This document shows positions 5,093 to 32,564 of a DNA stretch of 37,860 bases, piece by piece. Origin of the DNA: Deltaproteobacteria bacterium (GTDB taxonomy: Bacteria > Desulfobacterota > Desulfarculia > Adiutricales > JAFDHD01). The stretch spans positions 1 through 37,860 of the forward strand of contig JAFDLS010000009.1 in assembly GCA_019306365.1 (NCBI GenBank), written 5' to 3'. Both the position numbers and the translations under genes were made by a program. Within the stretch, counting starts at the first letter, position 1. Each line of letters starts with the position of its first letter. Below the pieces are notes generated by a model that saw only the letters and a program-made list of their open reading frames with translations, was not told where the DNA came from and searched no databases.

Positions 5093-5323
5093 ATGATGGA
5101 AGACGCAGAAGTAAAACAGTCAATTTTTGATTTCTTAGAAAAGAAATCAAAAACTAAAAAGATGCATTATCTAAGTGACATTGCCAAAGGCATCGGGCTG
5201 AAAAAAAGAGAGATAAAAAAAGTCGTTCAAGCAATGATCGAGGCGGGTGAAATTGAGCCTTGGTCCAGTGGCAGCACAACCTATTATATGCTTCCCGGCT
5301 CTCGCGACGTAGAAAACTTATAA
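5093..5323 (+). CDS. dsrD: DsrD, dissimilatory sulfite reductase-associated winged-helix protein
   Basis: 76 aa with the DsrD signature EPWSSGSTTYYMLPG and KKREIKKVVQAM; RBS GGAGG at 5084-5089. Confidence 0.82.
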   Translation: MMEDAEVKQSIFDFLEKKSKTKKMHYLSDIAKGIGLKKREIKKVVQAMIEAGEIEPWSSGSTTYYMLPGSRDVENL

Positions 5324-5552
5324 ATTTATTTTTAACGGCTTGACAGATAGACGCAATTATTGAAGGCTCCGCCTTTGCAAGCTGTTGAAGGTTTATAGCC
5401 AAGGGTTTCGCCTATCTTAAATCAAGCCAATCGAAAAAGCCTGACTTAGTAAGCCTTTGACTAACAGTAAAGACGCAGAAGAGGGTCTTTGCCTGAAGGC
5501 TTGAGAACGGTTTTAATGGTTTGAAATCGCGGAATTTTACAAAGTTTTTTTA

Positions 5553-5581
5553 TTGACAAAAAAACAGGGGAACTTTATATT
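5553..5581 (+). promoter_or_regulatory. sigma70-type promoter, probably for dsrAB
   Basis: TTGACA (5553-5558), 17-nt spacer, TATATT (5576-5581), about 235 nt upstream of dsrA. Confidence 0.65.
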
Positions 5582-5672
5582 CCCTTTGATAAATCGCTTG
5601 CGATTATAAATAATTTTCAGTCAGTAAAACCAGACTATTAGAAAGGTTCTAAGGGGCTGAAAAAAGATCTTC

Positions 5673-5780
5673 ATGGACTTAAGTAAGATGATGTTGATGC
5701 TGGAAGGAGGTGAGACCGGGTCTTCAATAGGAGACAATGCCAGTTGTTTAAGCAATATACTGTTGAATCTAAAACTTTAG
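5673..5780 (+). CDS. candidate 35-aa leader ORF in the dsrA 5' region (MDLSKMMLMLEGGETGSSIGDNASCLSNILLNLKL)
   Basis: ATG to TAG open frame between the inferred dsrAB promoter and dsrA; weak RBS, so uncertain. Confidence 0.25.
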   Translation: MDLSKMMLMLEGGETGSSIGDNASCLSNILLNLKL

Positions 5781-5815
5781 AGATATTTTGATTAACCCAA
5801 AATCTGGAGGTAATT

Positions 5816-6784
5816 ATGCCAATTACTCACAAGACCCCTCTTTTAGATGAACTTGAAAAAGGCCCATGGCCTAGCTTTGTCACGGATTTAAAGCGAGCGG
5901 CTGAGGAAGGCGGCAGTGACACGGCCAACGACCTTCTGGGACAGCTCGAATTGTCATATGTACAGAAGGTCGGACACTGGAAGCACGGCGGCATCGTCGG
6001 TGTTTTCGGTTATGGCGGAGGCGTGATCGGCCGTTATACGGATGTGCCTCATCTGTTCCCCTCGGTCGAACACTTTCATACCATGCGTATCAACCAGCCA
6101 GCCAGTAAGTTTTATAGTTCTGACCAGTTGAGAACTTTGGCTGACATTTGGGATAAGCATGGAAGCCAGATTACAAACATGCATGGCTCCACCGGTGACA
6201 TCATCTTTCTCGGTTGCCGAACCGAGGCTTTGGAACCCTGCTTCGCGGATCTGACAGCGCATGGCTTTGACCTGGGCGGATCAGGTTCGGCTCTCAGAAC
6301 TCCCAGCTGCTGTGTAGGTAAGGCGCGTTGTGAATGGGCCTGCCTTGACACCCAGGATATCACCTATAACCTGACCATGACCTACCAGGATGAGATGCAT
6401 CGTCCTGCCTGGCCTTACAAGTTCAAGTTTAAGACTTCCGGGTGTCCCAATGACTGTGTGGCTTCAATTGCCAGGGCGGACTGCTCCATTATCGGCACAT
6501 GGCGGGATGATATTCGGATAAACCAGGATGAGGTCAAGAATTACGCCGAGAGCGGGCTGGATATTCAACAGTACGTCATTGATCTTTGCCCGACAAAATG
6601 CATTAGCTATGAAGACGGTGAAATTCAGATTGACAACAAGAACTGCACCCGGTGCATGCATTGTATCAACGTGATGACCAAGGCTCTCAGGCCCGGAACC
6701 GATACCGGCGCGACCATCCTCATCGGCGCCAAAGCTCCCATTCTCGAAGGTGCCCAGATGGGCGTGAGCGAGTGGGAGAGCTGA
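5816..6784 (+). CDS. dsrA: dissimilatory sulfite reductase alpha subunit, interrupted (N-terminal ~317 residues intact, then out of frame)
   Basis: [41 protein letters not shown] and ferredoxin domain [11 protein letters not shown]; frame lost after [13 protein letters not shown]. Confidence 0.93.
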
Positions 6785-6951
6785 TTCAGCGTCTGGGTTA
6801 CCGCGCTTTTCTGGAAGCGGTCGAAATTGATCCCATTCCGCAGATGATTAAAGAACCAAGATCCAATCCTTATATTTTCTTCAAAGAAGAGGATGTTGAA
6901 GGTGGTTGGGAACGGGATCTTGAGGCATACCGAAAAAGGCATCAGGCCTAG
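6763..6951 (+). pseudogene. dsrA: C-terminal part of DsrA in a different frame ([62 protein letters not shown])
   Basis: Matches the canonical DsrA C-terminus (RERLGE...KEPRTNPYIFFKEEEVPGGWDRD..YRKRH). Confidence 0.9.
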
Positions 6952-6971: not shown

Positions 6972-8075
6972 ATGGCAGAAGAAAAACAAGAAAGAATTAC
7001 TGATATCGGTCCTCCGAAATACGATACGGCCTGGACCCCTTTTATCAAAGAAAACTACGGCAAGTGGCTCTATCATGAGGAACTGGAACCAGGCGTTTTA
7101 ATGCATGTTTCCGAAACCGGCGCGAAACTCTGGACGGTGCGTATTGCGGGTACCCGTTTGATGAGCACCCTGCATATGCGTGACCTGGCTGCCATTGCTG
7201 ACGAGTTCTGTGACGGTCTTCTCAGGTTCACCACCCGTAACAACATCGAATTTCTCATTACGGATGAAGCAAAGTTACAATCCCTTAAGGACAAGTTGAA
7301 AGCGGATGGTCACGCCATAGGTGGAACCGGCGCTGGTATTACCAACATTGTTCATACTCAGGGTTGGATTCATTGCCACACGCCGGCTATTGACGCCTCG
7401 GGTATTGTTAAGGCTGTCATGGATGAGCTTTTTGAATATTTTCATGACAAAAGGCTCCCCAACAAGGTTCGTATTTCACTGGCGTGCTGCTTGAACATGT
7501 GCGGCGCGGTCCATTGCTCGGACATTTCAATTCTGGGCGTTCACCGGAAGCCGCCCCTCATTGAGCATGACCGTCTGCTGAACGTCTGTGAAATTCCCAC
7601 GACCATCGCGTCCTGCCCCACGGCCGCCATCAGGCCTTACAACTTTGAAGACGAGGAAGGCAAGCAGGTCAAATCGGTTCAGGTCAATAATGAGCGATGC
7701 ATGTTCTGCGGTAACTGTTACACCATGTGTCCGGCCATGCCTCTGGCTGACCCGGTAGGTGACGGTGTGGCCCTGTGGGTTGGCGGTAAGGTCTCAAACG
7801 CCAGGTCTATGCCCAAGTTTTCCAAACTGGCCGTGCCGTTTCTCCCGAATAATCCGCCGCGTTGGCCTGAAACTGTTGAGGTTATTAAAAATATCGTTGA
7901 GGTTTATGCCGCTGACGCGCGTTCTTATGAGCGTGTAGGTGAGTGGGCCGAACGGATTGGTTGGGAAGAATTCTTCAAAAAGACCGATATTGCATTCACG
8001 CCCTTTCATATAGACGATTATCGGTTCGCTATGACCACCTGGCGGAGCAGCACCCAGTTTAAATTCACGGATTAG
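6972..8075 (+). CDS. dsrB: dissimilatory sulfite reductase beta subunit
   Basis: [38 protein letters not shown] siroheme/4Fe-4S motif, [16 protein letters not shown] ferredoxin domain. Confidence 0.96.
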
Positions 8076-8078
8076 TGC

Positions 8079-8294
8079 ATGGAACGCGAAGACTTAAAAC
8101 AAAGAGTCTTCGATTTGGTGGCTCAAAGCCAGAAAAAGGTAAAACCCACCGACCTGGCCAGGACTCTGGCCAGGTCGGTGGGCGTTGATAAAAAGGAAGT
8201 CAAAGAGGCCATTACCAACCTGGTCTCTGAAGGCAAGCTCATTTACACTTATATCGGACACACCTGGTTGGAACTCCCTTCGGACAAAGAGTGA
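8079..8294 (+). CDS. DsrD-like winged-helix protein (divergent, no WSSGSTT motif)
   Basis: 71-aa ORF in the usual dsrD position right after dsrB; VDKKEVKEAITNLVSEGKLIYTYIGHTWLEL aligns with the DsrD core. Confidence 0.7.
   Translation: MEREDLKQRVFDLVAQSQKKVKPTDLARTLARSVGVDKKEVKEAITNLVSEGKLIYTYIGHTWLELPSDKE
8145..8182 (+). repeat. perfect 17-bp inverted repeat with 4-nt loop inside the dsrD-like CDS
   Basis: CCCACCGACCTGGCCAG - GACT - CTGGCCAGGTCGGTGGG (8145-8161 / 8166-8182). Confidence 0.95.
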
Positions 8295-9718
8295 ATTTAC
8301 CCTGCCCTCGTTTGGTTGTGGCTGCCCTTCGAGGCGGCGGCGGCAAAACGACCATTTCATTGGGCCTGCTGGCCGCGTGGCGGAAAAACGGCCGCAATTT
8401 AATCCCCTTTAAAAAGGGCCCGGATTATATTGATGCCGGCTGGCTGGCCAGCGCGGCTCAATCCCCCTGTTATAATCTTGATACCTACCTTATGACGCCT
8501 GAAAAGGTGATTCAATCCTTCGCCTGCCGCCTTGGCCGGGAGTCAGACGGTGCTCTGATTGAAGGAAACAGGGGCCTGTATGACGGGACTGATAAAGACG
8601 GCACCAACTCCACGGCTGAGCTGGCCAAACTGCTGAACGCCCCCGTGATCCTGGTGGTGGACTGCACCAAGGCTACTCGAACCCTGGCGGCGGTTGTACT
8701 AGGCTGTCTGCATTTTGACACAAAGGTTCGTTTGGGTGGAGTAATCCTCAACAAGGTGGCCACAGCCAGGCAGGAAGCCCTGGTCAGGTCAACTATTGAA
8801 ACCGAAACCGGTTTGTCCATTTTAGGCGCCGTGCCCAGAGCCAGAGGGCAAAATCTCCCGGAACGTCATCTCGGCCTGGTGCCCCGGCAGGAACATCCAG
8901 CGGGAAAAGGTGAAATTGAAAAGTTGGCCGAATTGGCGGAAAATCATCTTGATCTCGATGGGTTATGGAATCTGGCGAAAAGCGCTCCAGAGCTTGAATA
9001 CAAAAAAGGCGTTTGGTTTGAAGAGATTGCTGAATCTGTAAAACAGGTTAAAATCGGGGTGATTCGCGATTCGGCTTTTCAGTTTTACTACCCGGAGAAT
9101 CTGGAAGCCCTGGAGCGTCTGGGCGCGAAGCTGGTTACTTTTTCAGCCCTTTCCGTGAAGACCATACCCGATGTTGACGCCCTTTATCTGGGCGGAGGCT
9201 TCCCGGAAACTCATGCTGAAATCCTGGCGAGTAACGAAAAACTGCGCCAGGAATTTTACCAAGCCGCCATGAACGGTTTGCCCATCTACGCTGAATGCGG
9301 CGGCTTGATGTATCTGGGCCGGGAGTTGATAGTAAGAGACCGGACCTATCCCATGGCCGGTGTTTTCCCGGTGACATTCGGTATTGAGAGCCGTCCTCAA
9401 GGTCATGGTTACACTATTTTGGAGGCCGTGAAGCCCAATCCATACTACCCGGTTGGCGAAGAGTTGGTAGGGCATGAATTTCATTACTCGCGCCCGCTCA
9501 ATTATGAGGCGGATAAGGTTGATCTGGTTTTAAAAGTCCGTCGCGGATATGGATTCGATCAAGGCCGGGACGGATTGGTAGTCCGTAACGTTTTAGGGAC
9601 TTATACCCATCTGCATGCACTGGGAAACGTTCGCTGGGCTGAGGCTTTGGTTGATCTGGCGGCAGGTTATCGAGGATCAGAGAACAACTGGCGGAGGGAA
9701 GCGGCTGATGAGTCTTAA
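8291..9718 (+). CDS. dsrN: cobyrinic acid a,c-diamide synthase family glutamine amidotransferase (DsrN/CbiA)
   Basis: Deviant P-loop AALRGGGGKTTISLGLLAAW; GATase domain YLGGGFPETHAEIL, YAECGGLMYLG, GHEFHYS; GTG start overlaps previous stop (GTGA). Confidence 0.88.
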   Translation: MNLPCPRLVVAALRGGGGKTTISLGLLAAWRKNGRNLIPFKKGPDYIDAGWLASAAQSPCYNLDTYLMTPEKVIQSFACRLGRESDGALIEGNRGLYDGTDKDGTNSTAELAKLLNAPVILVVDCTKATRTLAAVVLGCLHFDTKVRLGGVILNKVATARQEALVRSTIETETGLSILGAVPRARGQNLPERHLGLVPRQEHPAGKGEIEKLAELAENHLDLDGLWNLAKSAPELEYKKGVWFEEIAESVKQVKIGVIRDSAFQFYYPENLEALERLGAKLVTFSALSVKTIPDVDALYLGGGFPETHAEILASNEKLRQEFYQAAMNGLPIYAECGGLMYLGRELIVRDRTYPMAGVFPVTFGIESRPQGHGYTILEAVKPNPYYPVGEELVGHEFHYSRPLNYEADKVDLVLKVRRGYGFDQGRDGLVVRNVLGTYTHLHALGNVRWAEALVDLAAGYRGSENNWRREAADES

Positions 9719-30457: not shown

Positions 30458-31468
30458 ATGCTTGGAAGAACTACCGTGACTCAGCATCTTTTGCTTACTC
30501 AGACAGAGGTGTCAGGAGCCACTGGCACTTTTACCCGGTTAATTAATGAACTCATCGTTGCCGCGAAATTGATCTCACGGGAGGTAAATAAGGCCGGGCT
30601 GAATGACATAATAGGTTATGCTGGACGTGAGAACGTCCAGGGAGAGGCCGTTCGCAAACTTGATGACTTTTCTAACGATGCCATTATTCGCCGCCTTCAA
30701 TCCAGCGGCGTACTTTGCGCCATGGCCTCGGAGGAAGTCGCCGACGTTATCGAAATCCCGCGTAATTATCCGGTGGGCGATTATTTGCTTATCTTCGATC
30801 CTCTGGATGGAAGCTCTAATATTGATGTCAATGTTAGCGTGGGAACGATTTTTTCCGTTTTGCATCGCACGACAGATTCATGCGATCAGGGAACCCTGGA
30901 AGATATTTTACAGCCGGGTTATAAACAGGTTGCGGCGGGTTATTTCGTTTATGGATCTTCTACTATCATGGTCTTTTGCGCCGGGAACGGGGTGCACGGC
31001 TTTACCCTTGACCCCTCTATCGGTGAGTTCCTTTTGTCACACGAAAACATGAAGATTCCCGAGTGGGGAAATACTTTTTCAATTAATGAAGGCAATTATT
31101 ATTACTGGTCTGAGGATATGCGGCGGTATATAGACTATCTAAAGGACCCCAAGGCTGACCATCGTGGATATACCTCCCGGTATGTCGGTTCGCTTGTGGC
31201 CGATTTTCACCGGAATCTGATTCATGGTGGTATCTTTCTTTATCCAGCGGATACCAAGGACCCGCGCAAGCCGCATGGCAAGTTAAGATTGATGTGTGAG
31301 GCCAACCCTCTGGCTTATATCGTGGAACATGCCGGCGGGTCAGCCAGCGACGGCACTCAGAGGATCATGAATATTATTCCTGAAGAACTGCACCAAAGGG
31401 TGCCGTTGATCATTGGGAGCAAGGAGGAAGTTCGCATCGTAGAGGAATTTATCCAGGGCAAGAGATAA
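30458..31468 (+). CDS. fbp: class 1 fructose-1,6-bisphosphatase
   Basis: IFDPLDGSSNIDVNVSVGTIF metal-binding motif; KLRLMCEANPLAYIVEHAGG. Confidence 0.96.
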   Translation: MLGRTTVTQHLLLTQTEVSGATGTFTRLINELIVAAKLISREVNKAGLNDIIGYAGRENVQGEAVRKLDDFSNDAIIRRLQSSGVLCAMASEEVADVIEIPRNYPVGDYLLIFDPLDGSSNIDVNVSVGTIFSVLHRTTDSCDQGTLEDILQPGYKQVAAGYFVYGSSTIMVFCAGNGVHGFTLDPSIGEFLLSHENMKIPEWGNTFSINEGNYYYWSEDMRRYIDYLKDPKADHRGYTSRYVGSLVADFHRNLIHGGIFLYPADTKDPRKPHGKLRLMCEANPLAYIVEHAGGSASDGTQRIMNIIPEELHQRVPLIIGSKEEVRIVEEFIQGKR

Positions 31469-31499: not shown

Positions 31500-31530
31500 C
31501 CTCGCAGCCTCTTCAGGCTGCGAGGATTTT
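31500..31530 (+). terminator. Rho-independent terminator after fbp
   Basis: CCTCGCAGCCT - CTTC - AGGCTGCGAGG perfect 11-bp stem followed by ATTTTAT. Confidence 0.85.
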
Positions 31531-31547: not shown

Positions 31548-32564
31548 ATGAAGATTCTTGGAATTGAAACATCTTGTGATGAAACGGCGGCGGCCGTGGT
31601 TGAGGATGGCCGGGTAATCCGGTCCAATGTGGTACGCACTCAGTTTGACCTTCACGGCCGATACGGGGGGGTGGTTCCGGAACTGGCGTCACGCCGGCAC
31701 GTGGAAGTGATTGTGCCTGTGGTTGAAGAAGCGCTGAATCAGGCCGGACTCGATCTGGCCCAGCTTGACGGTTTAGCCGTCACACAGGGGCCGGGATTGG
31801 TTGGATCATTATTGGTCGGCCTCAATTTTGCCAAGTCTTTGGCGCTGGCGACAGGTCTTCCGGTAGTCGGGGTCAATCATCTGGAGGGTCACATTGCCGC
31901 CGGGTTCTTGACGGGCGACATCCCCGGCTTCCCCCTTGCCGCGCTGGTTGTTTCCGGGGGACACACAAATCTTTACCTTGTCCGGGGGCCCATGGAGTTT
32001 GAGCTTTACGGTCAGACCAGGGACGACGCGGCCGGTGAGGCCTTCGATAAGGTGGCCAAGCTTTTAGGGTTGGCTTATCCGGGGGGTGTGTCCATCGAAG
32101 CTCAATCCAGCAGGGGAGACGGGCAGCGCTTTAAACTGCCCCGGCCAATGTGGGGACAGGGGCTGGACTTTTCTTTTTCCGGCCTTAAGACGGCGGTTTT
32201 AACTCTTGTAAACCGTGAGTTTGAGGGGGGCGAAATCGGGCCAAAGGACATGGCTGATTTAACAGCTTCCTTTCAAGCAGCCGTGGTTGAGGTTTTGACC
32301 GGTAAAACCTCGGCCCTGCTCGATCAAATAAAGGTCAAAGGTTTGATTATGGCTGGCGGCGTGGCGGCTAATCAATGCCTGAGGACGGAAATGACTGAGG
32401 TTGTGAAGCGATATGATGTCCCCTTTATCTTACCGCCGATTAACCTGTGTACTGATAACGGCGCCATGATCGCTGCGGCGGGTTATTACCACCTGGCCGC
32501 GGGTCACTTTTTAGACCTGGCCGCCGACGCTTATTCCAGAGTACCGAAACCGATATCGGCATGA
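31548..32564 (+). CDS. tsaD: tRNA N6-adenosine threonylcarbamoyltransferase
   Basis: MKILGIETSCDETAAAVV, ELASRRHVEVI, GVNHLEGHI, VSGGHTNLY. Confidence 0.97.
   Translation: MKILGIETSCDETAAAVVEDGRVIRSNVVRTQFDLHGRYGGVVPELASRRHVEVIVPVVEEALNQAGLDLAQLDGLAVTQGPGLVGSLLVGLNFAKSLALATGLPVVGVNHLEGHIAAGFLTGDIPGFPLAALVVSGGHTNLYLVRGPMEFELYGQTRDDAAGEAFDKVAKLLGLAYPGGVSIEAQSSRGDGQRFKLPRPMWGQGLDFSFSGLKTAVLTLVNREFEGGEIGPKDMADLTASFQAAVVEVLTGKTSALLDQIKVKGLIMAGGVAANQCLRTEMTEVVKRYDVPFILPPINLCTDNGAMIAAAGYYHLAAGHFLDLAADAYSRVPKPISA

Follow-up and report, generated by a model that had tools for sequence, protein, structure and literature searches.

The window, by which we mean the whole 37.9-kb stretch of DNA that was analysed, carries on its + strand, in this order, dsrA, dsrB, dsrD2, dsrN, a HEAT-repeat gene, an RsbRD_N gene, dsrM and the rest of an MKJOP cluster, whose members we take to be dsrKJOP from their position and general knowledge. 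Genes at the dsrB-X-dsrN position are present in many genomes of the same phylum, and clusters of the order DsrABDN... have been described previously (PMC10504309). The features of the locus are as follows.

6972-8075, + strand: dsrB, directly upstream of dsrD2 (NIR_SIR, 132 bits).
8079-8294, + strand: dsrD2, a 71-aa winged-helix gene between dsrB and dsrN, which carries the hairpins.
8291-9718, + strand: dsrN, encoding a CbiA/CobB-type amidase; its GTG start overlaps the dsrD2 stop (GTGA).
8087-8112, + strand: hairpin A, a 9-bp stem (one G-U) with an 8-nt loop, -10.8 kcal/mol, 9-34 nt into dsrD2.
8119-8131, + strand: hairpin C, TGGCT-CAA-AGCCA, weak and taken from the consensus fold.
8145-8182, + strand: hairpin B, a perfect 17-bp stem with the tetraloop GACT, -38.8 kcal/mol, at +67 to +104 of the dsrD2 coding sequence.
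8140-8142 with 8185-8187, + strand: extension of stem B, three pairs beyond a 2x2 internal loop (RNAalifold, pair counts).
8061-8068 with 8291-8298, + strand: predicted long-range helix between the end of dsrB (AAATTCAC) and the start of dsrN (GTGAATTT) (RNAalifold).

Among the genomes searched, a close dsrD2 orthologue was found in only two besides the window's own genome (G000), one from the same genus (G001; 77% protein identity) and one from the same order (G005; 70%), and the order dsrB-dsrD2-dsrN-HEAT is identical in all three. The host gene had been called dsrD-like in the preliminary description, a label that applies loosely: its DsrD (PF08679) score of 20.0 bits falls under the gathering cut-off of 24.2 bits, and MCM4_WHD scores 33. 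The G001 orthologue also remains below the cut-off at 21.2 bits, and that of G005 gives no PF08679 match at E<=0.01. The clear DsrD is encoded by a separate gene upstream of dsrA (5093-5323, 72 bits), within which lies the second-best inverted repeat of the window (5124-5153; 13 bp, perfect, 4-nt loop, A/T-rich), whose pairing is lost in G001. Some 490 nt between dsrD and dsrA (5330-5815) hold no clear gene and no Rfam match and could be a leader or promoter region. Near 6763, dsrA (5816-6951) is short of 121 nt relative to the G001 DsrA (418 aa), with a frame shift that splits it into ORFs 5816-6784 and 6652-6951; the missing stretch points to a faulty assembly or else to a dsrA that is broken. 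Elsewhere in the window, a perfect 11-bp hairpin (CCTCGCAGCCT-CTTC-AGGCTGCGAGG) occupies 31500-31525, in the gap that separates an ORF ending at 31468 from the one that begins at 31548.

The preliminary description had reported a perfect 17-bp stem with a GACT loop about 70 nt past the dsrB stop. Indeed, the arms of stem B (8145-8161 and 8166-8182) form 17 of 17 Watson-Crick pairs across the 4-nt spacer GACT, starting 69 nt 3' of that stop. Of the five inverted repeats in the 37.9-kb window that reach 12 bp (arms spaced within 60 nt), stem B is the longest. Second-order Markov shuffling of the window (60 shuffles) puts the expected number of stems of at least 12 bp at 0.017 and produced none of at least 13 bp. 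The two best folding z-scores (-7.1 and -5.8) among 503 overlapping 150-nt segments of the + strand, which served as the stability background, both fall at the stem B region.

Part of the stem can be traced to the protein sequence. The peptide LARTLAR is encoded twice by the self-complementary CTGGCCAG, two direct copies of which account for 8 bp, and one could regard the stem as a functionless by-product of this repeat, its palindromic codons and chance. The remaining 9 of the 17 pairs are additional to those 8, and with the protein fixed and its codons redrawn, 17 bp was reached in none of 4000 draws (maximum 14). A three-species null leaves proteins, divergence and codon use as they are: every codon column of dsrD2 is replaced at random by a column with the same amino acids in the three species, taken from a set of 2409 aligned columns in neighbouring genes. 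A full match of this kind was available for 55 of the 71 columns; when fewer than three columns matched, pairwise or single-species pools were used instead. About 10% of these draws do yield shared stems of 7-9 bp. None of 4000, however, gave a stem of 14 bp common to the three species (maximum 9) or one of 17 bp common to G000 and G005 (maximum 11). Together with the compensatory changes and gene-wide synonymous constraint set out below, this makes a mere by-product very improbable.

Stem B is present in every one of the three genomes with a close dsrD2 orthologue. In G001 it consists of 13 perfect pairs and one G-U, with the three outermost pairs lost; across 28 kb, no other inverted repeat there has arms of at least 9 bp. 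The G005 stem retains the full 17 pairs, two of them as G-U, and 14 pairs are shared by the three species at the same codons. In the three-species alignment, the extended stem has three pairs that have changed on both sides in a compensatory way. The middle pair of the extension is A-U in two species and G-C in G005; the three-pair extension is absent when the G000 hairpin is folded alone. Over the whole drawn structure, five pairs are changed on both sides against 2.0 expected in shuffles (7/500), a covariation signal from three sequences only and carried by few pairs, which is abolished when the pairing partners are slid. The preliminary description had proposed looking in orthologous genes for pairing conserved despite codon changes, and had considered that the inverted repeat might be an assembly or amplification artefact. 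The first expectation is borne out by both relatives, which keep the stem with compensatory changes and beyond what the codon-preserving null yields; the artefact is ruled out by the homologous stem in the genomes of two other species. A repeated, REP-like element was likewise rejected, the stem having a single genome copy even with up to three mismatches.

The constraint is not confined to stem B. Hairpin A is kept in all three species, mainly through sequence identity, with pair probabilities of about 1 save for the outer pair in G001; hairpin C is absent from the minimum-energy fold of G000. The consensus folding energy of dsrD2 is -65.8 kcal/mol, against -34.0 +/- 5.9 kcal/mol in the codon null (z -5.4; 0/300), and third-position identities of 54/71 and 42/71 compare with null values of 34.3 and 28.9 (0/300 each). 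Between G000 and G001, 43 of 53 third positions are kept in dsrD2, compared with 46-65% in 20 other genes. Recent interspecies exchange was rejected as the source of this synonymous identity, since protein identity is merely average (77%). At codons 60-71 (8256-8291), next to the dsrN start, 11 of 11 comparable third positions are identical between G000 and G001 where 5.9 are expected; this identity is not seen in G005, and hairpin B leaves it unexplained. Because the stem is kept with paired changes, surpasses the codon null and is accompanied by hairpin A and third-position conservation, we conclude that it is a selected mRNA structure and neither chance nor an assembly fault nor a repeat. 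That the dsrD2 stem is a conserved functional mRNA structure is a conclusion in which we have high confidence.

The strand on which the stem acts bears on its function. Past 8182 the + strand reads CGTTGATAAAAAGG, with no U tract, and no + strand terminator was found at stem B, in agreement with the earlier statement that a stem followed by no T tract is not a standard terminator; the - strand does have a T tract (GGGTTTTACCTTTTT). The stem could accordingly be read as an intrinsic terminator for antisense transcription with a T-rich tail behind it. G000 has a terminator-like - strand site with a TTTTACCTTTTT tail, and the tail is similar in G001, where unpaired bases nevertheless separate it from the stem. 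In G005 the corresponding tail is CTTCAGCTTCTT, so that the features of an intrinsic (Rho-independent) terminator are absent from the + strand and, on the - strand, the tail is limited to G000 and G001. Moreover, the G005 mRNA strand folds at -33.4 kcal/mol and the opposite strand, with two pairs fewer, at -25.7 kcal/mol; since two of the G005 pairs are G-U on the mRNA, the + strand is favored. No - strand gene evidently needs a terminator here, and hairpin A would be left unexplained. We therefore consider antisense termination highly unlikely. Antisense coding was also rejected, as the - strand ORF at 8094-8360 is interrupted by an in-frame stop in G001. So was a programmed -1 frameshift: AAA AAG lies 6 nt 5' of the G000 stem and AAG AAG is found in the others, hence the slippery site is not conserved.

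The inverted repeat might in principle act as DNA, as a cruciform or as the operator of a dimeric regulator, since operators too can be perfect palindromes split by a short spacer. The half-site, however, varies from CCGACC to GCGACC to GCGACT with the pairing kept, partly through G-U wobble, which points to RNA. The site is furthermore unique in the genome even with three mismatches, and no promoter-like site was found in 7900-8500. A role at the level of DNA consequently receives very little credence from us.

In a search with covariance model R1, 64 genomes from the class yielded no site beyond the three already known, and 396 genomes from the phylum added none. A weak match in G063 (E 0.005) was rejected as a GC-rich chance match inside a gene that reads as glutamine synthetase (glnA). 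Contig scans returned only the G005 contig and one distant relative, and no Rfam family matched the window at gathering score, the best sub-threshold match reaching 22 of 40 bits. The dsrD2-like genes in 20 more distant dsrB-X-dsrN loci contain no such stem; hence the dsr operon has no general need of it, and within these collections stem B is confined to the lineage. The dsrD2-like genes of one family group (L018, L019, L024, L026-L028, L030, L031 and L034) often contain, around codons 8-14, a stem of 8 bp (CTTGTAGA/TCTACAAG) or its 7-bp form (TGGTAGA/TCTACCA), which is not universal in the group. This stem was rejected as the same element, being broken in several members.

What, then, might a conserved hairpin in this position do? 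The preliminary description had suggested protection of dsrAB relative to dsrN, with translational control inside the operon as the alternative. Of 26 protective hairpins reported for E. coli, 17 are placed within the gene that comes next, 107 +/- 56 nt into its sequence, and such intra-gene hairpins lack a U tract and display extra conservation at wobble positions (PMC5927463, Dar & Sorek 2018). Hairpin B resembles this class closely. It lies inside the gene 3' of the presumably favored one, at +67 to +104, its stability is well above the window background (-38.8 kcal/mol, z -7.1), no U tract follows, and both structure and wobble positions are conserved in relatives (3/3; 0/4000 and 0/300). 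It differs in that the E. coli structures are backed by measured 3' ends, half-lives and coverage steps (PMC5927463), whereas the present hairpin is predicted from sequence; it also belongs to another phylum and to other genes (dsrB, dsrD2 and dsrN), and a second hairpin follows directly after the start codon. By this analogy, hairpin B may serve as an intra-ORF 3' protective element that stabilizes dsrAB over dsrD2-dsrN. This is the likeliest of the mechanisms considered, and we hold it at even odds.

Under the proposed protection, an endonuclease would cut the polycistronic message downstream, in its dsrD2-dsrN part, and 3'-to-5' exonucleases of the PNPase/RNase II type would halt at the base of the stable stem. 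The dsrAB portion would stay intact and the dsrD2-dsrN portion would decay, with dsrB and dsrA the presumed beneficiaries. The outcome would be abundant DsrAB and scarce DsrN. DsrN has been assigned to siroheme cofactor amidation (PMC10504309). The enzyme is needed for that step only. The same exonuclease halt after an endonuclease cut, with protection of the upstream gene, has been proposed for the malE-malF structure, which is intergenic, the dsrD2 hairpin being intragenic (PMC5927463). In the cip-cel cellulosome operon, the ratios of the subunits depend on stem-loops 3' of the highly expressed genes, and these stem-loops are conserved in relatives (PMC4423207). Selective RNA processing and stabilization there shares with the dsr locus a conserved stem-loop behind the presumably favored genes, although the cip-cel element is intergenic, is found in a Clostridium and has experimentally mapped processing sites (PMC4423207).

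The main rival to protection is translational control, whereby hairpins A and B, behind the dsrD2 start, would slow ribosomes and the long-range helix would couple dsrN to ribosome passage through dsrD2. Hairpin A begins 9 nt into dsrD2 in a form kept by all three species, the dsrN start lies within the dsrD2 stop, and the third-position identity of codons 60-71 between G000 and G001 adjoins that start. The long-range helix contributes two covarying pairs, changed on both sides, and its shared 7 bp is matched in 41 of 2000 codon-null draws. Its ensemble probability, on the other hand, is about 0.09 in G000, 0.01-0.38 in G001 and 0 in G005, and we treat the pairing of the dsrB end with the dsrN start as a weak prediction, to be taken as a lead only. 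Hairpin B, moreover, is located far inside the gene, where stems are opened by the translating ribosome, and burial of the Shine-Dalgarno regions is not clear in every one of the three species. A precedent exists in RNA phages of the MS2 type, where long-distance pairing between coat and replicase joins an upstream coding segment to a downstream start region. The dsr arrangement is alike in that a distant upstream coding segment, the dsrB end, would pair with the downstream start of dsrN, and unlike it in that its helix has a low predicted probability and lacks support in G005. On this evidence translational control is possible, and we lean against it.

It is tempting to speculate that the whole dsrD2 frame doubles as a regulatory RNA, in which hairpins A and B, and perhaps the long-range helix, would form a switch setting DsrN output against that of DsrAB, an idea we consider improbable. 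The winged-helix protein DsrD2, by binding the message that encodes it, might act as the sensor or autoregulator of such a switch.

For the dsr operon, which encodes the dissimilatory sulfite reductase, post-transcriptional control appears to be undescribed, and a search of the open literature returned nothing on hairpins in dsr operons. The strategy of protective hairpins is known from E. coli operons, and none was found for this pathway in the open literature searched. A dual-coding, covarying element behind dsrAB would offer a testable account of how DsrAB could far exceed DsrN from one message. Coverage steps between dsrB and dsrN in dsr metatranscriptomes need not, in that case, imply separate promoters. 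If protection by hairpin B is true, programmed intra-operon decay, which has been measured mainly in enterobacteria, would extend to an uncultured sulfur-metabolizing lineage.
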